A stretch of DNA of 64,000 nucleotides from Dysgonomonas sp. HDW5A (lineage in GTDB: Bacteria > Bacteroidota > Bacteroidia > Bacteroidales > Dysgonomonadaceae), in the NCBI RefSeq assembly GCF_011299555.1, contig NZ_CP049857.1:2542001-2606000 (forward strand). The letters are read 5' to 3'. The notes beneath the pieces are model-generated. The model was not told the DNA's origin. It was given only the letters and a program-made list of their open reading frames with translations, and ran no database searches. Shown piece after piece: positions 5,244 to 24,246 of the stretch. The translations under genes and the position numbers were made by a program. Each line of letters starts with the position of its first letter. Within the stretch, counting starts at the first letter, position 1.

Positions 5244-5696
5244 ATGGCTGATACAATAACATGGTACGTAGATTATTTTGACGATTTAGATATTCATAAG
5301 TTATACAACTTGCTTTATTTACGTGCTGAGATATTTGTCGTGGAACAAGAATGTCCTTATTTAGATCCGGATAATAAAGATCAGAAAGCTTTACATTTAC
5401 AAGGTTATGTGGGCGAAAAACTTGTAGCTTACTGTCGTTTATTTAAGCCGGGTGACTATTTCACTGAGGCGTCTATCGGTAGAGTTGTTGTTGCTGCTGA
5501 CTTTCGGAAGTATGGTTATGGACATCAGTTAATGACGAAGGCAATAGAACTTCAGGCATCTTTAATGAATGAAACCCAGATAACGATATCGGGTCAGTTG
5601 TACCTGAAGAAATTTTATGAAAGTCATGGTTTTATTCAGACCTCCGAAACTTATTTAGAAGATAATATTCCACATATACAAATGAAGTTGAATTAA
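5244..5696 (+). CDS. ElaA-like GNAT N-acetyltransferase
   Basis: A 150-aa acetyltransferase of the GNAT superfamily. LYNLLYLRAEIFVVEQECPYLDPDNKD is the ElaA-type N-terminal signature, followed by the acetyl-CoA binding strand and loop IGRVVVAADFRKYGYGHQL. The substrate is unknown. It sits 20 bp upstream of galE on the same strand and may be co-transcribed with it. Confidence 0.85.
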   Translation: MADTITWYVDYFDDLDIHKLYNLLYLRAEIFVVEQECPYLDPDNKDQKALHLQGYVGEKLVAYCRLFKPGDYFTEASIGRVVVAADFRKYGYGHQLMTKAIELQASLMNETQITISGQLYLKKFYESHGFIQTSETYLEDNIPHIQMKLN

Positions 5697-5716
5697 CGAA
5701 AATATATAATATCACT

Positions 5717-6751
5717 ATGAAAAAAAAGATTTTAGTAACAGGTGGAACTGGATATATAGGTTCACATACAGTTGTTGAATTACAAAATGCAGGGTATGAA
5801 GTAGTCGTTGTTGATAACTTGTGTAATTCGACTGCTGACAGTATTGATGGTATTGAGCGTATCACCGGAATTCGTCCAGCATTCGAGAAAATAGATTGTA
5901 ACGATGAGGAAGCATTACGCAAAGTATTCGCGAAATACTCTCCAATCAGTGGGGTGATCCATTTTGCAGCTAATAAAGCTGTTGGAGAATCGGTTGAGAA
6001 ACCTTTGTTATATTATAAAAATAATCTGGTGTCATTAATCAATGTTTTGGAATTGATGCCCGAATTTAATGTGAAAGGTGTTGTATTTTCTTCATCTTGT
6101 ACCGTTTATGGAGAGCCTGATGTCAATCCTATTGATGAAACAGCCGCCATTAAACCGGCTGCGTCGCCCTATGGTAATACTAAACAGATCAATGAAGAAA
6201 TTATTCAGGACTTTGTGGCTTCCGGAGCCAATATTAAGAGTATAATCTTACGCTATTTCAATCCGGTAGGTGCGCATGCTACTGCTGAGTTAGGCGAATT
6301 ACCCAATGGTGTGCCTCAAAACTTAGTTCCTTTTATTACTCAAACTGCTATGGGTATCCGTAAAGAGTTGAGTGTATTTGGAGACGATTATGATACACCT
6401 GACGGTTCATGTGTTCGTGACTTCATCAATGTGGTAGATTTAGCTAAAGCTCATGTTGTTGCAATGGATAGAATGTTGCAAGATAAATCTCCGGATAAAG
6501 TGGAAATTTTCAATTTGGGTACAGGAAACGGTGTGTCAGTATTAGAACTTATCCATATTTTCGAAAAAGTATCGGGTGTGAAAGTAAACTATAAAATAGT
6601 TGGACGTCGTGCCGGAGATATTGTTAAAATATGGGCAGAACCATCTAAAGCCAATAACGTATTGGGATGGACAGCAAAAGAAACTATTGAAGATACAATG
6701 GCATCGGCCTGGAAATGGCAGCAAAAGCTTAGAGAAAAAGGTATTATGTAA
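5717..6751 (+). CDS. galE: UDP-glucose 4-epimerase
   Basis: A 344-aa extended short-chain dehydrogenase. It has the NAD-binding TGGTGYIG near residues 8-15, SSSCTVYGEP and the catalytic YGNTK. The RYFNPVGAH segment and the C-terminal GRRAGDIVKIWAEP are specific to GalE. It interconverts UDP-glucose and UDP-galactose. The neighbourhood contains no other Leloir gene, so it may feed cell-surface glycans. Confidence 0.93.
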   Translation: MKKKILVTGGTGYIGSHTVVELQNAGYEVVVVDNLCNSTADSIDGIERITGIRPAFEKIDCNDEEALRKVFAKYSPISGVIHFAANKAVGESVEKPLLYYKNNLVSLINVLELMPEFNVKGVVFSSSCTVYGEPDVNPIDETAAIKPAASPYGNTKQINEEIIQDFVASGANIKSIILRYFNPVGAHATAELGELPNGVPQNLVPFITQTAMGIRKELSVFGDDYDTPDGSCVRDFINVVDLAKAHVVAMDRMLQDKSPDKVEIFNLGTGNGVSVLELIHIFEKVSGVKVNYKIVGRRAGDIVKIWAEPSKANNVLGWTAKETIEDTMASAWKWQQKLREKGIM

Positions 6752-16736: not shown

Positions 16737-16821
16737 GGAGAGATGGCAGAGTGGTCGATTGCGGCGGTCTTGAAAACCGTTGTACTGCGAGGTACCGGGG
16801 GTTCGAATCCCTCTCTCTCCG
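16737..16821 (+). tRNA. tRNA-Ser(UGA)
   Basis: An 85-nt class II tRNA. Acceptor arms GGAGAGA and TCTCTCC pair fully. The anticodon loop CTTGAAA carries UGA, a variable arm (TGTACTGCGAGGTACC region) is present, and the T loop is GTTCGAATC. The discriminator base is G, as in serine tRNAs, and CCA is not encoded. The gene marks the left edge of the accessory region. Confidence 0.95.
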
Positions 16822-16870
16822 CAAAAAATGTTGATTATAAAGCATTTACAATCAGCAGGGACTAAAAAAG

Positions 16871-17520: not shown

Positions 17521-17558
17521 ACACCCAATTTTACACCATGAAATGTAAAATTGGGTGT
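17521..17558. terminator. Bidirectional terminator between RT and GNAT genes
   Basis: A perfect 15-bp stem (17521-17535 with 17544-17558) with an 8-nt loop. T-rich stretches occur on both sides. It would end transcription of the reverse transcriptase gene on the minus strand. Confidence 0.75.
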
Positions 17559-17591: not shown

Positions 17592-18896
17592 TTACAATTC
17601 TGCTATTATATCTTCTGGTGCAATCTTTCTTTTAGCTTCTATAAGCTTATTACAAAAGGGAATCCCTGAACTTTTTCTTTGATCTTTGGATAAACAATAT
17701 GGACTTTCGCCTTGTATGCGAAACTTTTTAGGTACTCTTCCTAAAGAAGATGTTGTCAAACGCCATCCTAAATCTCTTAAAGAACGATATAATTGTCTAT
17801 CAATAAATACATCTATTTCTTTACTATACCTATCTACATCTGTATAATAAAATGCTGATATCCAGCCATCCAATTTATTTTTCACCTTTGTTATAATAAA
17901 GTGAACATCTGTTTTTCCAGCTTTGAAAACTTCCTTAAATAATTTTTCTTTAAGTTCTTCTACATTCTTTCTTGATGGATAAAAACTATTCTTATCAAAT
18001 GTTATTGATAAAAAGGAAAGAGGGGTAGACTCAATATTAAGTATTTGAGTTTTAATCTTGCCTTTGTCTGCTATATTTAATTTATGCATTGGCAAATTTA
18101 ATTTATTTTCCCCTAAAATATCTTGGCATTCTAAGTATGCTTCATTGCATTTTTCTTCTGTAGAACATAGGATAACAAAATCGTCAGCATATCTTACAAG
18201 GCTATACCCTTTCTCTTTCATACATTTATCGAAAGGTGCTAAATATATATTTGATAATAATGGAGATAAAGAATTCCCTTGTGGTATTCCATCATTTATG
18301 CCATAAAAATAATCATGTTTATCTTTATCTATTCGTTTGTCTAATTCTCCTACTGTTTGATTTAAAGCTGATATTATCAGATTGTTTAGCGAATTATCTG
18401 GTAATTTTTGTAATACTAGATCTATCAAAGCATTTTTGTTAACATTGCCATAAAAATTAATTAAATCAGCTTCAAGTATATAGTTATTCCCTACGTTTTT
18501 ATGACTTAATATTTTATAAACAGCATCCTTTATTCCTAAATTGGTTTGATAAGCAAAACTCACATCTCTATTTTCGTCCAATATATCTTTAAAGTGTCCT
18601 TCAATTTCTATAGCAAGAGCTTTTAAAACTAATCTGTCAGAAATTTCTGGAATCTGCAAGGGTCTATACCCTCCGTTATCTTTCGGTATCAATACAGGTC
18701 TATATGACGAAAATTTATAAGAGTGTTCTCTTAATTGAAGAGAGATAGATTTAATACGTGAATCTAAATTTTTTTGAAATGTTTCAATTGTTTCTTCATC
18801 TGTCAATCCATGGGAACTTTTACGTTTACGAAGAGTGCCCCAAACTTTATAAAGATTATCAACAGATGAGATTTTTTCTAATAAGGTTGTTTCCAT
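17592..18896 (-). CDS. Stand-alone reverse transcriptase (group II-like)
   Basis: A 434-aa RNA-directed DNA polymerase. RT motifs run in order: YRPVLIPKDNGGYRPLQIP, LEADLINFYGNV (catalytic Asp near 144, with Gly where group II enzymes have a second Asp), GIPQGNSLSPLLSNIYL, VRYADDFVILC (YADD near 236-239) and LSFLSITFDKNSFYPSR. A maturase-like thumb (KLDGWISAFYYTDV) follows, then a C-terminal CLSKDQRKSSGIP segment. QGxxxSP separates it from diversity-generating retroelement enzymes. No HNH domain and no group II domain V lie downstream, so it is not a standard mobile intron. The first ATG could be 18917; I prefer 18896. The 5' flank carries a 119-bp direct repeat. A defence or cellular RT role is possible but unproven. 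Confidence 0.85.
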   Translation of the reverse strand: METTLLEKISSVDNLYKVWGTLRKRKSSHGLTDEETIETFQKNLDSRIKSISLQLREHSYKFSSYRPVLIPKDNGGYRPLQIPEISDRLVLKALAIEIEGHFKDILDENRDVSFAYQTNLGIKDAVYKILSHKNVGNNYILEADLINFYGNVNKNALIDLVLQKLPDNSLNNLIISALNQTVGELDKRIDKDKHDYFYGINDGIPQGNSLSPLLSNIYLAPFDKCMKEKGYSLVRYADDFVILCSTEEKCNEAYLECQDILGENKLNLPMHKLNIADKGKIKTQILNIESTPLSFLSITFDKNSFYPSRKNVEELKEKLFKEVFKAGKTDVHFIITKVKNKLDGWISAFYYTDVDRYSKEIDVFIDRQLYRSLRDLGWRLTTSSLGRVPKKFRIQGESPYCLSKDQRKSSGIPFCNKLIEAKRKIAPEDIIAEL

Positions 18897-18955
18897 GATA
18901 TTTTTCTTGTGTTGCAAAGACCCTCAGAATGACAAAATGTCCGTATAACAGCACT

Positions 18956-19141
18956 TTACAATATAGACAGAGAAACGCTTAATGTTACAGCTAACAATAA
19001 TACAATCGTATTTCTTGCAATGCTGGCACTTCCGTGTTCTCGGGCAATCCTGACAATAGATTCAAGAGTTAATCTAAAGTCGAACGCAAACTTAAATTCA
19101 TATTTAAGTAACTTCTCTTCGGCGCTTGGGATTACAATTTT
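18956..19141 (-). pseudogene. Decayed small membrane-protein reading frame, copy 1
   Basis: An open frame without any ATG, GTG or TTG before the hydrophobic part. It reads IPSAEEKLLKYEFKFAFDF, then RLTLESIVRIAREHG and a transmembrane stretch NTIVLLLAVTLSVSLSI, then stops. The central part is the first copy of the 119-bp repeat. It could be the frameshifted continuation of copy 2. The family is not recognised. Confidence 0.35.
18966..19084. repeat. 119-bp direct repeat, copy 1
   Basis: Identical base for base to 19346-19464 (offset 380 bp). Homology fades just outside: at the 19085 side, the encoded EFKFAFDF resembles EIKIGFDF next to copy 2, while the 18965 side diverges at once. It lies 69 bp upstream of the chosen reverse transcriptase start. 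Confidence 0.95.
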
Positions 19142-19485
19142 TTAGATTCTTTCATTTCATCAAAATTTAGAGATTCAACAAAGGTCTTCTCACTCAAAGA
19201 TAAAGATTTTTTTGACCTGTGCAACTTTTTTAGTTTTTTAACGAATTTAACAGATTGCCTGTCCTCCCTACCATTAAAATGGCTTGCTCCCACTGTCTCC
19301 AAAGGTGTAATTATGCTGTCATACACAATGGTTTCAAACGAGATGGACAGAGAAACGCTTAATGTTACAGCTAACAATAATACAATCGTATTTCTTGCAA
19401 TGCTGGCACTTCCGTGTTCTCGGGCAATCCTGACAATAGATTCAAGAGTTAATCTAAAGTCGAATCCAATCTTTATTTCAAAGAA
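19132..19485 (-). pseudogene. Decayed small membrane-protein reading frame, copy 2
   Basis: An open frame reading FFEIKIGFDFRLTLES, the transmembrane stretch encoded by repeat copy 2, then SFETIVYDSIITPLETVG and a basic tail ending KESKKL. No ATG is available upstream of the conserved part; the only in-frame candidate is a TTG at 19377 within the membrane segment. It is probably a remnant of a small membrane protein, or a non-coding template with coding ancestry. Not recognised. Confidence 0.35.
19346..19464. repeat. 119-bp direct repeat, copy 2
   Basis: Perfect copy of 18966-19084 with no substitutions. Perfect identity argues for recent duplication, gene conversion or functional constraint. 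Confidence 0.95.
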
Positions 19486-19576: not shown

Positions 19577-20119
19577 TTATAACCCTTCCATAAATGGAGG
19601 TGTATATTTTATCTTTGATTCATCAATAATTGAATATTTTCCAAATTCATTCTCCTTTTGTATCGTATTCTTTAGAAGATTTTTAAAGATAGTTTCCTGT
19701 TCTTTAGGTCGTATTAAATCTTCTGGTAGGGATGACATTGAATACGCACTATAGCCTTTTTTAGTAATCAGAATTTCATCCATTGAAAATATATTTAGAA
19801 GGGCTTCAAAATAACGGTATTTTCCATTTCTATAATCATAACCTTCTGTTGAAGCTAAGATTCTTCCATTGTTCTTTTTATATAAGTCTAATTTCATGGG
19901 TTTTCCTTTATGATAATCAAGTAATCTAATAGAGCCTACTTCTTTGTCGTTAAGTCCCAATAAAATAATGTCACATTCTTCGTTGGTCAAAGCCTCCGCA
20001 TTATCTCCAACTTTATTTCTAAATTTATATTCTTCAACGCCAAAACCTCTAGGAGCTGAATGAGCAAAAAGAGCTTGTATAAGAAGCCTTTTGTCTAGAT
20101 TAGTTACATCAAATTCCAT
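19577..20119 (-). CDS. Hypothetical protein of 180 aa
   Basis: No family recognised. The protein is soluble and mixed alpha/beta, with no signal peptide or membrane segment. It starts 5 bp after the stop of the next gene upstream, so the two form a pair. The middle (IILLGLNDKEVGSIRLLDYHKGKP) looks like beta strands, and the end is charged. The AT-rich composition and position beside an RT and a nucleotidyltransferase-HEPN gene suggest accessory, possibly defence-related, origin; this is inference. Confidence 0.6.
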   Translation of the reverse strand: MEFDVTNLDKRLLIQALFAHSAPRGFGVEEYKFRNKVGDNAEALTNEECDIILLGLNDKEVGSIRLLDYHKGKPMKLDLYKKNNGRILASTEGYDYRNGKYRYFEALLNIFSMDEILITKKGYSAYSMSSLPEDLIRPKEQETIFKNLLKNTIQKENEFGKYSIIDESKIKYTPPFMEGL

Positions 20120-20124
20120 TCTTG

Positions 20125-20538
20125 TTATATATTTATGTCAGTGTAGAAATTCAATATTCTTTCAATTTTATTTTGTCTCCGTTTTTGCACATCAAAATCT
20201 TTTAAATTTGAAAGTTCCTTTTTTAACGATTCTAAGCGTTCGAAACTATTCGTAAAACTAAATTTATTATCATCAAATACATCTTTTAAATCTGATGTGT
20301 TTAATTTAAAGTATAAAAAAGCTAGCCTCAAATCATTTTCACTTAAATTAATTTTATTATCACATACATGAAAACCATTTTCGATTCGGATATTTATATA
20401 ATCGAAATAAATCTTTTTGCGGGAATTTTTATTTAGTCTAAATTCCCTTTTCCCTTTATTCTTATCCCTCTCTGATGTTGTATCTATAAAACCATTCTTT
20501 AAAAGGATTGCTGCCAACTCCTCATTTGCTTCATACAT
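20125..20538 (-). CDS. Hypothetical protein of 137 aa
   Basis: No family recognised. A lysine- and asparagine-rich soluble protein with a probable helical C-terminal half (SFERLESLKKELSNLKDF). It is the first gene of the two-gene pair with the 180-aa protein. The start at 20538 has an A-rich leader. It could be an antitoxin- or adaptor-like partner, but nothing in the sequence proves that. Confidence 0.55.
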   Translation of the reverse strand: MYEANEELAAILLKNGFIDTTSERDKNKGKREFRLNKNSRKKIYFDYINIRIENGFHVCDNKINLSENDLRLAFLYFKLNTSDLKDVFDDNKFSFTNSFERLESLKKELSNLKDFDVQKRRQNKIERILNFYTDINI

Positions 20539-20571: not shown

Positions 20572-21459
20572 TCACTCCATCCCCCCATACTCCCCAATCT
20601 TCACCTCACAAATCCTCTTAGTAATATCCCTCAACAATTCCACTTTCGGAACAAGGGCATCAATATCCTGTTTAGTAACAACAAAATCAGGATCATAACG
20701 ACCATTCACATAAGCCGCTTTGATAAGCTCAAAAAGCCGTTTCTCTTCTGCTGTATCAAGCGGAAAGACTTTGATAAACTCGTTGGAGTATTTCTTTACT
20801 GAGTTTAATAATTTTGTGAGATTATGTTGTTTTGGGTTTTCTAATGTAAAAACTAAACGAATAGCATATATATAATTTTCACAAGCTTGATGTAAATGAA
20901 ATGATGCCATTTGAAAACAATCTCTTTCATTAAATAATCCTGCTCCCAATAAAAACTCATTTCCTCTTTTAAATTTATCATCAAAGTATTCCTGAGCCTG
21001 TTGCTTTATTTCCTCAAAACTAAGTTTACGTCTTCTAGCTAACTTATGTTTACCACTATCATATAAAACAACGCCCTCTTGTTTTATCTGTGTATAAAAG
21101 TATCGCCCTTCATTCAGGTATTTATTCAGCTTCTTCATATCCTCGCTGATAAACTGAACAGGAGGCTGTCTATCAGGGTCTTTTGCCCTGTCATAATACA
21201 GATCTTCCACATTGCTGAGCGACCTGATTGCTCCTCCGTCCGATACTCCGCTTGTCACAACCAGTATATCGTAATCACTTACATAAAACTGTAGTTTGCC
21301 AAACTCATATTTTTCATCATATACCACATAGTCATTTCGGGCATAACTGCCAAAGAGGATTATCATTTCGGTTTGTTTTAGCCTCTGTAAAACAGACTCC
21401 ACAATAAAATGTAAATCCCGCTGGTTAGTTGATGGTAAATATGATATTGACTTTTTCAT
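20572..21459 (-). CDS. Nucleotidyltransferase-HEPN fusion protein
   Basis: A 295-aa protein joining a minimal nucleotidyltransferase to a HEPN domain. The first part has IILFGSYARNDY (GS near 37-38) and SDYDILVV (the Asp pair near 62-64). The second, roughly residues 160-285, has ASFHLHQACENYIYAIRLVF and KQHNLTKLL, typical of HEPN. In separate MNT-HEPN pairs the transferase modifies and silences the HEPN RNase; fused forms are common in Bacteroidetes and uncharacterised. I use the ATG at 21459, because a TAAGTTTGC -7 box (complement of 21479-21487) lies about 20 bp upstream of it, which excludes the longer reading frame. Confidence 0.82.
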   Translation of the reverse strand: MKKSISYLPSTNQRDLHFIVESVLQRLKQTEMIILFGSYARNDYVVYDEKYEFGKLQFYVSDYDILVVTSGVSDGGAIRSLSNVEDLYYDRAKDPDRQPPVQFISEDMKKLNKYLNEGRYFYTQIKQEGVVLYDSGKHKLARRRKLSFEEIKQQAQEYFDDKFKRGNEFLLGAGLFNERDCFQMASFHLHQACENYIYAIRLVFTLENPKQHNLTKLLNSVKKYSNEFIKVFPLDTAEEKRLFELIKAAYVNGRYDPDFVVTKQDIDALVPKVELLRDITKRICEVKIGEYGGME

Positions 21460-21689
21460 ACAGATATATTCGTTTAATGCAAACTTAGCTATAAAAATAA
21501 TAAAAGGGTCTGCGACCCTAAAGATATTGAAAAAAGGAAAACAAGAGTTATCTTTTTGTTTGTTAATTGTATATTTGTATTTACATCCTGCTTCTTGTCG
21601 GTTTGACATAAGATTCAGACTGACGACTCAACACCGCAGAGATATAAATTATTATAGATTATTTATATCGGCTTGATTCTCTAATCAGG

Positions 21690-21919: not shown

Positions 21920-22675
21920 TTATAGATAGCTATTTTCATTCTTCGATTTTCTTTTTCTGATTGATTCTCCAATTAATTCTACTCTTAGTGAGTCATGTAC
22001 CAGGCGATCGAGTATGGCATCTGCTACAGTTTTTTCTCCTATGGCATCATACCAATCTTTAACAGGTACTTGTGAGGTTATCATTGTTGATTTTTTCTGA
22101 TGCCGATCCTCTATAATATCCATCATTATACCTCTGGACTGAGAGTCAAAGGCTTGCATTGCAAAATCATCAAGGATTAGAAGATCCACCCTTTCGATAC
22201 GTTTAAATTCATTTAGTATAGTCCCTTTTACTTTGGCTATCTTTAAGCTGCTCATCAATTTAGCGGTATTGGCATAAAAGACCTTATATCCATCTTGGCA
22301 GGCTTTGTTTCCTAGTGCAGTAGCCAGATAGCTTTTTCCTGTCCCGGTGGGTCCTGTAATAAAGATATTCTTGTTGTCTTTGATAAAATCCAAGCCCGCC
22401 AAGCGTTCTACCTGATTACGATCCAAGCCTCTTTCGAAGCTATAATCAATCTCTTCCAAGAAAGCAGTGTACCGAAACGCTGCCAGCTTGGTTGCTCTTT
22501 TGATGGCACGATTGCGACGATTATCCCATTCACTGGATACCAAATGGAAGATAAATTGATCTTGTGTCATCTGCTCTTTTAAAGTGTTCTCTAAAGAAGT
22601 TTTAAAAGCATCGTGCATCCCTAAGAAACGCATCTGACGCAGTTTCTCTAATGTTTGATTGTTCATGTTGTTCAT
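21920..22675 (-). CDS. istB: IS21 helper ATPase IstB
   Basis: A 251-aa AAA+ ATPase, the transposition helper of IS21. Walker A GPTGTGKSYLA lies near residue 108, Walker B is LLILDDFAMQ, and the N terminus has RLAGLDFIKDNKN-type IstB text. It starts 26 bp after istA ends, and the gene appears intact. Confidence 0.93.
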   Translation of the reverse strand: MNNMNNQTLEKLRQMRFLGMHDAFKTSLENTLKEQMTQDQFIFHLVSSEWDNRRNRAIKRATKLAAFRYTAFLEEIDYSFERGLDRNQVERLAGLDFIKDNKNIFITGPTGTGKSYLATALGNKACQDGYKVFYANTAKLMSSLKIAKVKGTILNEFKRIERVDLLILDDFAMQAFDSQSRGIMMDIIEDRHQKKSTMITSQVPVKDWYDAIGEKTVADAILDRLVHDSLRVELIGESIRKRKSKNENSYL

Positions 22676-22701
22676 TGTTTTTTAATAATTAATTTGTTTG
22701 T

Positions 22702-24246
22702 CTATTTATAATAATCTTTGCCTCTGATATTTTCATGTTCGGGTATATCCACTGTTTCTTCAGGTACTTCTACAAACTCAGATTTAGTTTTAAGGATATC
22801 CTGGATCTCGTTATAACTGTATCTGTCATAACTCTCAGCCAATCGGCAGGCTGCCGTCAAACGAGCCGCTCCGACCTTCCTGGCCAATAAAAGGATACCC
22901 GAACAACTCTTGTTAGCCTGATCCACATAGCGTTTCTTTTCCATCACTTTACGGATGTAACGCTCCACATCCTCATGGATGTCGGCTGCTTCTTTGATAA
23001 ATACTTCAGGGGACCATTCCAATACGGCTTTATGTTTGGGATGCAGATGATCTGTATTGGTGGTATGCTTAAACTGCAAACGACTGCGGGTATGAGATGC
23101 CACAAGGCTATAGCCGTCAAAGATATGCACATCATCCGCTGAGTAAGAGAGCTTAAGCCTTTTACCGATATACGTGTGAGGTACACTGTAATAATGGATA
23201 TCCTCACTCAAGCGGATATAACCATCTTTACCTACGGTAGCCATCGCGTGTTTTTTAATCTGATAGCGGATTGGATTCAATGGTCCTAAGGATTCTTTTT
23301 CAATCTCTTCAAAATAGGAACGACGAGAGTAGTTCCGATTAGTCAACAGATTATTGTTATGCAGGTCTAAAGCAGACAGGATAGCTGCATTTAAACTCTT
23401 TAGATCAGGGCAATGAAGATGACTGGTGCGAGTGTAAATATCCTTATAGGTTAGTTTAACGGCATTCTCCACAGGAGCTTTGTCTCGGGGTTTACGAACA
23501 CGAGCGGGGAACACTGTGACTCCATAATGTTCAGCAAAACGCTCAAACTCTTCATTCAAGATAGATTCATGGCGAGAAGCTTTGGTTACAGCAGCTTTTA
23601 GATTGTCAGGAACAACAGCTTGAGGAACACCTCCATAAAAATAAAAACTGTTCTCACAGGCAGAGATAAAATCTTCTTTGCTCTGCCCTGATACTGCTTC
23701 CACATAAGTCAACAAGCTACAACCCAAGATTGCCACAAATACATCCACCTCACGAGGGGATTCACCATGAGGATAAATCCAAAGCTTATCTCCTGTATAA
23801 TCTACAAACATTTTATCCCCTGCTTTATGTTCCATACGCATAGAGGGGTTATTAATCATTCGATAACGTTGAACTGAGATGCGAAACTGAGTTAAGCCAT
23901 ACCCATCGGGGTGTTCTTTGATATACTTTTGCCATTGCTGCATCGTAGTCATCCCTTTACGACCAAGGTCCTTACTGATGCTCGGAAGAAGAGACTCCAG
24001 TGTATCCCGACGTGGGTTAGGCATACCGGGAGCATCTGTAATACAAAATAACGCGTGAAGTTCCGTATCACTCTTAGACACAAAATCATCAAAACTAATC
24101 TTTAAAGAGTTCCATTTATGGATATACTTCTTAACAGTATTGCGGGAGGTGCGAGCCATTACGGCAATAGTTTTAAGACCCATATGGTCCTCATACAAAC
24201 GGATAATCGTTCTTAATTTGGTCATTGTTATAAATTTGTTGGGCAT
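22702..24246 (-). CDS. istA: IS21 transposase IstA
   Basis: A 514-aa DDE transposase with an N-terminal helix-turn-helix (MTKLRTIIRLYEDHMGLKTIA) and the rve catalytic core: VDYTGDKLW carries the first Asp, VPDNLKAAV the second and RDKAPVENAVK the Glu. Full length and no interruption, so the element is likely still active. Confidence 0.93.
   Translation of the reverse strand: MPNKFITMTKLRTIIRLYEDHMGLKTIAVMARTSRNTVKKYIHKWNSLKISFDDFVSKSDTELHALFCITDAPGMPNPRRDTLESLLPSISKDLGRKGMTTMQQWQKYIKEHPDGYGLTQFRISVQRYRMINNPSMRMEHKAGDKMFVDYTGDKLWIYPHGESPREVDVFVAILGCSLLTYVEAVSGQSKEDFISACENSFYFYGGVPQAVVPDNLKAAVTKASRHESILNEEFERFAEHYGVTVFPARVRKPRDKAPVENAVKLTYKDIYTRTSHLHCPDLKSLNAAILSALDLHNNNLLTNRNYSRRSYFEEIEKESLGPLNPIRYQIKKHAMATVGKDGYIRLSEDIHYYSVPHTYIGKRLKLSYSADDVHIFDGYSLVASHTRSRLQFKHTTNTDHLHPKHKAVLEWSPEVFIKEAADIHEDVERYIRKVMEKKRYVDQANKSCSGILLLARKVGAARLTAACRLAESYDRYSYNEIQDILKTKSEFVEVPEETVDIPEHENIRGKDYYK

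Follow-up and report, generated by a model that had tools for sequence, protein, structure and literature searches.

A reverse transcriptase of Dysgonomonas with identical upstream repeats and a candidate gene kept as reversed halves

We analyzed a 64,000-nucleotide (nt) stretch of the genome of Dysgonomonas sp. HDW5A (contig NZ_CP049857.1, positions 2,542,001 to 2,606,000; here referred to as the window), in which a gene for a reverse transcriptase (RT) is preceded by two identical direct repeats, R1 and R2, with a spacer, U, between them. Repeats, spacer, and RT form a real, recurring, and unusual RT system, and the repeats likely have a role as template for the RT. It is plausible that the element hides a gene. 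Specifically, we consider it possible, at rather less than even confidence, that a toxic membrane-protein gene is stored as reversed halves between identical RNA ends and becomes whole only in the complementary DNA (cDNA) that the RT would make by strand transfer.

The window RT has the motifs QGNSLSP and YADD and comprises 434 amino acids (aa) counted from its ATG, in agreement with a reading made from the letters alone (the sequence-only reading), which had reported an RT of this length with QGxxxSP and YADD. That reading had also described two perfect 119-bp repeats 380 bp apart upstream of the gene, and these are present as described: R1 and R2 match over 119 bp with no mismatch and have a start-to-start distance of 380 bp. 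On the RT strand, the order is R1-b-a-R2-tail-RT, with b and a lying in U (Table 1). No second copy of this flank was found at an E value of 0.001 in the 4.3-Mb genome, and matches at E values up to 1 are short and were read as chance. Plasmid records contained no DNA match to the flank, and the peptide encoded by R1-b had no match among phages or plasmids.

A first scan of a collection of named genomes with the window RT alone gave no locus. A second scan, with a profile built from the window RT and L003 (the protein also listed as L132, from Dysgonomonas mossii), gave 13 loci, seven of them at 38 to 46% identity; loci have likely been missed, because these scans rely on short peptide patterns. 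L131 of Muricauda okinawensis and L143 of a Crocinitomicaceae metagenome-assembled genome have in common with the window both a C-terminal block of the RT (K.R...L...QR..SG) and the upstream element. Another search, of 395 genomes of the phylum, added the genome G698 (L189 and L193), along with three weaker loci (L190 to L192; E values of 1e-53 to 1e-57) that take other positions in the tree described below. Among 101 genomes of the family and 393 of the order, strong RT matches came only from the window's own genome and D. mossii. At E values of 1e-60 to 1e-70, searches of 395 genomes from the L131 order, 22 from the L131 genus, and 92 from the G698 family matched only the center of each search. 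In an IQ-TREE tree of 62 RT rows chosen from the collected loci, with seven fragments or near-copies dropped, the window RT, L131, L143, and L193 form clade A (support, 94/94), and all four rows carry the C-terminal block. Five RTs that lack the block (5/5) form clade B (100/100), and the two clades together make up a nine-member clade (100/100) that is separate from UG17 and from 47 other rows.

The R1-U-R2 layout is seen in three of the four clade A members. L131 and L193, whose RTs are 44% and 40% identical to the window RT, have perfect repeats of 106 nt and 88 nt that lie 361 nt and 381 nt apart. The sequence of R is only partly alike across genomes, yet it is perfect within each; because R has diverged between genomes, its identity within a genome is being kept. 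The sequence-only reading was also right that this is not a diversity-generating retroelement (DGR): we rejected that candidate because the repeat pairs have no adenine-directed differences, with no difference of any kind in 119, 106, and 88 nt in the window, L131, and L193 (the order in which values for these three loci are given throughout). As a control, we scanned the 1.5 kb upstream of the RT at 158 other loci, some of them near-copies, for which 600 nt or more of upstream sequence was available; all loci with less than 600 nt had been dropped, as had 11 loci that were the window, its own clade, or duplicates. A perfect repeat of at least 50 nt was present in 3 of the 158, at a spacing of 72 to 115 nt versus 361 to 381 nt in clade A, and two of these three look like copies of one case. 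The repeat layout is therefore beyond chance. In clade B (L132 to L136), no repeat of at least 13 nt occurs within 1 kb of the RT, save a single 14-nt pair in each of L135 and L136. In the cyanobacterial locus L139, a perfect 96-nt match at 72-nt spacing is a tandem array that lies 5' of an RT and then Cas1.

Searches of mobile elements gave only distant RTs. Plasmids yielded at least 5,000 RT records, all counted ones below 60% identity, with a best of 29% among the matches listed, and none at 1e-40 when the L131 RT was the query. Phages yielded 44 RT records below 60% identity (best, 30% among the matches listed), and 9 records at 1e-15 with the L193 RT. Five RT scans of viral contigs found no segment above 33% identity, two of them without any match. 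The GTCAGGATTGCC pattern of R is absent from L193 and is therefore no test for the element; L144, the sole viral-contig match to an R pattern, lies within a phage terminase-like gene and was taken as chance.

Each repeat lies inside an open frame on the RT strand, R1 in one of 117 codons (19135-19485) and R2 in one of 61 codons (18959-19141), and neither has an ATG before R, as had been noted from the sequence, nor a GTG or TTG. Going upstream from R1, the frame of R meets a stop after 7, 5, and 2 codons; going downstream from R2, it meets one after 3 and 12 codons in the window and L131 and continues into the RT in L193. Within U, the same frame continues past R1 for 71, 49, and 46 codons and, on the upstream side of R2, is free of stops over 19, 67, and 42 codons; among 5,000 random U sequences that preserved the dinucleotide steps, 4, 6, and 45 had both open stretches at least this long. 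Because the frame is open at the U side of both R1 and R2, U holds both halves of one frame in reversed order. The sequence-only reading had taken the region for an RNA template or a decayed partner gene. The recurring layout and a kept hairpin (below) support an RNA for the RT, but the gene is better described as permuted than as decayed, because U extends the frame of R from both ends at three loci.

A tandem or circular copy of the unit joins a, R, and b into an open frame of 129, 151, and 117 codons, lengths that dinucleotide shuffles reached in 2, 1, and 61 of 2,000 cases; because the loci are homologous, these frame-length tests are not independent of one another. Aligned over 105 residues, the joined peptides of the window and L131 score 132, compared with a shuffled mean of 29 (standard deviation, 5), and the internal gaps in the DNA alignment of this pair are 6 and 3 nt. 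In all three joined peptides, the most hydrophobic 19 residues begin at positions 46 to 48 and span the R-b joint (means of 1.95, 1.66, and 2.74). In R of the closest pair, L131 and L143, differences occur at 8, 6, and 18 of 35 sites of codon positions 1, 2, and 3 (one-sided P = 0.006). Before R, the joined frame contains a single start-type codon (GTG) in L193 and five (ATG, GTG, or TTG) in L131, and L143 has one complete 62-codon frame with an ATG, ending 2 nt before the RT start. In the L193 locus (reverse complement, 5281-6726), the a-R2 frame of G698 enters the RT frame without a stop, so that a form of the G698 RT with a hydrophobic N-terminal extension is possible judging from the frames.

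Each repeat opens with a predicted hairpin, which folds in five of five distinct copies (z scores of -2.2 to -3.5). The L193 repeats begin inside this hairpin: the 5' strands at R1 and R2 differ, and both pair with the shared 3' strand. Over four aligned rows, 84% of the cells pair, compared with 25 to 50% when the rows are slid, and both partners change in 3 of 11 pairs. Folds of the whole region, compared with shuffles, gave z scores of -2.95 in L131 and -3.56 in L193. A small hairpin in b (19271-19282), at first taken as covarying, was rejected because it is not stable alone (143 of 200 shuffles). Between b and a stands a promoter-like site. TTG-N18-21-TAnnTTT(G/T) is a promoter type of Bacteroidetes, and the window and L193 regions have one match each to this pattern, at an aligned place between b and a, with 0.16 and 0.10 matches expected by chance. 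In the genome, the site is whole and precedes both a-R2 and the RT. It may be no more than the promoter of the RT.

We tentatively favor, with a little less than even confidence, a reading in which the RT and an RNA with strand transfer between its repeats build the joined gene, probably as a two-part anti-phage system. An RNA transcribed from near R1 would run R1-b-a-R2-tail, and the RT would bind it and copy it toward the RNA 5' end. The cDNA end complementary to R1 would then release and re-anneal to the identical R2, either on that RNA or on a second one, and copying would go round again to give a tandem product with a 380-nt unit. Once a second strand is made, the promoter-like site at the end of b would precede the joined a-R-b frame, the translation of which would give a product of about 100 to 130 aa with one likely membrane segment and then a lysine-rich stretch. 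Expression of this product on infection would harm the cell or arrest it, and defense would be the outcome.

Several results weigh against this reading. Only four members were found, and the expectation that relatives with the same type of RT carry the repeats, which came with the sequence-only reading, held for L131 and L193 but not for L143, the third relative, which has a single copy of R. The promoter pattern is unmatched in L131 and L143. At the hairpin, shuffles reach the pairing in 22 of 500 cases and the covariation score, a check proposed at the same time, in 45 of 500. Folding of the window region as a whole is barely more stable than that of shuffles (z score of -1.53). The joined L193 peptide scores 45 and 56 against the other two, for which the best of 500 shuffles score 46 and 57. 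The hydrophobic segment that the sequence-only reading saw in each frame is real, but residue shuffles of the joined peptides reach the peak mean in 148, 969, and 12 of 2,000 cases. Identities between the window and L131 number 54, 67, and 60 of 104 by codon position, which is not the order of coding sequence; in column shuffles with stops treated as neutral, the right frame gave a z score of about 2.2 and two other frames 2.3 and 2.4, compared with about 7 for the RT. The antisense of the tandem unit (18966-19345 in the window) is also open, for 137, 110, and 118 codons, and in the joined window frame, none of the codons before R is ATG, GTG, or TTG. Overall, the joined frame is likely coding, though least of all in the window, and its product is plausibly a small protein with a hydrophobic segment.

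An unlikely but not negligible alternative is that the tandem-repeat cDNA is itself the product, acting as a signal or ligand, with the open frame a by-product of constraint on the RNA sequence. The DRT10 report describes such a precedent, in which cDNA re-anneals from A to A' within an A-B-A' template and a stem-loop stands before the template (PMC12632851); DRT here denotes a defense-associated RT. R1-U-R2 has the same A-B-A' anatomy, the hairpin lies at the 5' border of the repeat much as the DRT10 stem-loop precedes its template (PMC12632851), and the codon signal is weak between distant loci. This likeness to DRT10/UG17 holds for three of the four members and is one of anatomy only. The window RT has YADD rather than YVDD, and A measures 88 to 119 nt rather than the few nt of DRT10. 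Against a cDNA product stand the long matching frames that run from both ends of U at three loci, the hydrophobic segment at the R-b joint, and the excess of position-3 changes between L131 and L143. Moreover, DRT10 needs a SLATT gene, yet Pfam detected none among the neighbors scanned (four in the window, four at L131, three at L193, and four at L143, including the genes that adjoin the RT); as a control, a neighbor in the UG17 locus L201 matched SLATT_5 at 75 bits.

Close direct repeats often undergo conversion, and it is conceivable, if improbable, that a-R2 and R1-b are ordinary overlapping genes for small membrane proteins that conversion keeps alike, with the RT working otherwise. The codon-like change of R between L131 and L143 would suit such genes, as would the complete ATG-initiated frame of 62 codons in L143 that ends 2 nt before the RT start. 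However, R1-b has no start before R in the window or L193 and only a TTG in L131, a-R2 closes 3 codons past R2 in the window and enters the RT frame in L193, and the L193 hairpin is kept at both R1 and R2 despite their different 5' strands.

We regard as very improbable a recombination switch in which exchange between R1 and R2 cuts out the joined gene as a circle, with no part for the RT in the joining. The direct repeats are perfect, and L143 looks like a leftover of such an exchange: its upstream 100 nt is similar to the sequence at the R1 side of L131 (P = 0.03) but to none of the R2 sides (P = 0.40 to 0.95). The similarity is faint, however, and is not significant for the R1 sides of the window and L193 (P = 0.18 and 0.31). 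The single copy would fit a deletion between R1 and R2 or equally a collapse of the metagenome assembly, neither of them proven, and a switch would not need the RT, yet repeats and RT co-occur. It is scarcely credible that a gene fragment was duplicated in tandem by chance and then decayed upstream of an RT with which it has no connection: the window frames do lack the usual starts, but the same layout occurs at loci with RTs 40 to 44% identical to that of the window, and a perfect repeat of at least 50 nt was present in 3 of the 158 controls.

The RT itself resembles group II RTs in fold. Its AlphaFold model has a predicted local distance difference test (pLDDT) score of 82.7, and the closest structure is the GsI-IIC group II intron RT (7k9y; Z score of 30.4, root-mean-square deviation of 4.3, 390 residues aligned), with the G2L4 RT nearly level (9d4s; 29.4, 4.6, and 371). 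Further matches are a DGR RT (Z score of 27.7), DRT9 (21.2), and DRT2 (19.6). In a Pfam scan of the window RT, RVT_1 was the sole family matched, with no match to a maturase domain. Rfam at the gathering score found only tRNA in the window and nothing, including intron RNA, in L131, L143, or L193. The NCBIfam group II RT model TIGR04416 gave 201 bits (cutoff, 300), the Drt2 model gave 60.8 bits (cutoff, 390), and the retron St85 model gave 70.4 bits (cutoff, 235). A group II intron was ruled out because no intron RNA was matched and the RT falls below the group II cutoff.

Among the best 25 of 86 PADLOC families, the top named DRT classes were UG17 (145 bits) and UG21 (141 bits), whereas a true UG17 RT from the same phylum scored 440 bits with the UG17 model. 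In the tree, the four UG17 rows form their own clade (100/98), which does not include the window RT, and L204 and L205, annotated as group II RTs, are among the 47 rows outside the window clade. The UG17 loci L201 and L202 each have a SLATT gene, and the myRT report places SLATT_5 beside 82% of UG17 RTs (PMC8934634). By the tests made, the window RT is neither Drt2 nor UG17, the latter being ruled out by tree position and by the failed SLATT-neighbor test. The RT stays below the NCBIfam cutoffs of the DRT, retron, and group II models matched and was not found in a group II maturase clade, a placement that would count against the sequence-only reading.

Repetitive cDNA, gene rebuilding, and A-B-A' re-annealing do exist, as DRT2 and DRT10 show (PMC12039810, PMC12632851); in DRT2, a promoter and the neo frame are rebuilt in tandem cDNA (PMC12039810). 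The element proposed here resembles DRT2 in its upstream RNA, in a tandem cDNA that would complete a frame downstream of a promoter, and in the proposed toxic protein. It differs in that its unit is 361 to 381 nt rather than 120 nt, its repeats are 88 to 119 nt, and its promoter-like site is whole in the genome instead of being made by joining. An endless frame of the DRT2 kind was rejected, because the joined frame ends in a stop at three of three loci; of the three unit lengths, 381 nt is divisible by 3, and 380 and 361 nt are not. The parallel with DRT2 drawn by the sequence-only reading thus stands in principle, as a gene rebuilt in repetitive cDNA, but not as to family, and the 119 bp would be the repeat for the jump, the unit being 380 nt. 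Group II intron RTs and G2L4 give the best fold matches, but the window RT has YADD and not YIDD, the G2L4 motif (PMC4244168), and it lacks an Rfam intron and a maturase domain match. The terminal repeats of the unit also recall long terminal repeat (LTR) retroelements and would be suited to strand transfer, although the unit in the window is only 380 nt and has no sign of mobility. In LTR retroelements, the terminal repeats allow the first cDNA to pass from the template's 5' end to its 3' end.

One relative has a defense-island setting: L193 lies between Zorya II genes (ZorA2, ZorB2, and ZorE2) and a type I restriction gene, and a YgjP-like gene adjoins its RT. Near L131 are a weak Abi_alpha match (23.2 bits; cutoff, 29), a HerA_C match, and a tyrosine integrase; the scanned neighbors of L143 include no defense family. 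In clade B, L134 adjoins JetA and L133 adjoins a HEC-08/PDC-S64-like gene. The clade B RT of D. mossii (L132:3472-5905) lies between the conjugative-element gene TraQ and an ArdA antirestriction gene, and those of L135 (3044-5200) and L136 (3053-5209) directly follow HTH_3 and IrrE-like peptidase genes (L135 was the one scanned); the latter two also look similar over a stretch 3' of the RT. In the window, two tandem frames (19577-20119 and 20125-20538) lie directly upstream of R1 on the same minus strand and match no family, except for a weak type I specificity match (18.9 bits) in the second. Upstream of these frames, which run toward the RT element, a minus-strand frame (20572-21609) has a HEPN domain (51 bits) and a nucleotidyltransferase match below the cutoff, and upstream of that is an IS21-type pair (21920-24246, minus strand) of an IstB-like ATP-binding protein (220.7 bits) and an rve-core transposase. 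A tRNA-Ser (tga) gene (16737-16822, plus strand) adjoins a stretch of low G+C content (17.0 to 20.5 kb, mostly 26 to 35%); an island inserted at this tRNA was considered and rejected, as no second copy of at least 14 nt of the tRNA occurs in the window.

Table 1. Coordinates in the window of the RT gene, its upstream element, and associated features
Feature	Positions	Strand	Remarks
Likely terminator, 3' of RT	17521..17558	minus	Strong hairpin, then T run
Reverse transcriptase	17592..18896	minus	434 aa, group II-like fold, YADD
Tail 3' of R2 (TATTGTAAAGTGCTGTTATA)	18944..18963	minus	Partly alike among aligned loci
Frame a-R2 with stop	18956..19141	minus	a is 19 codons, then R; closes 3 codons past R2
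R2, repeat copy adjoining RT	18966..19084	minus	119 nt, identical to R1
Candidate three-way junction, U-R2 border	19035..19140	minus	RNAalifold prediction from 3 sequences only, unproven
Hairpin at start of R2	19052..19081	minus	Same hairpin as at R1
U, between the repeats	19085..19345	minus	261 nt; b and its stop, promoter-like site, a
8-bp hairpin just 5' of R2	19090..19109	minus	Hairpin predicted at same place in L131
Frame R1-b with stop	19132..19485	minus	R, rest of hydrophobic segment, lysine-rich stretch; no start codon before R
Promoter-like TTG-N19-TATCTTTG, end of b, before a	19195..19224	minus	Sole match in region scanned
R1, upstream repeat copy	19346..19464	minus	119 nt
Hairpin at start of R1	19432..19461	minus	

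No description of such a system was found in the open-license PubMed Central (PMC) papers searched. A gene present solely as cDNA is known from DRT2. If the reading favored here is true, the RTs described above would be a second lineage that completes a gene, by another joint in which long terminal repeats yield a frame with a stop. This would point to hidden genes as a trick in general use among bacterial RTs, and perfect direct repeats with one frame extended in opposite directions would be the signature by which to search for them.

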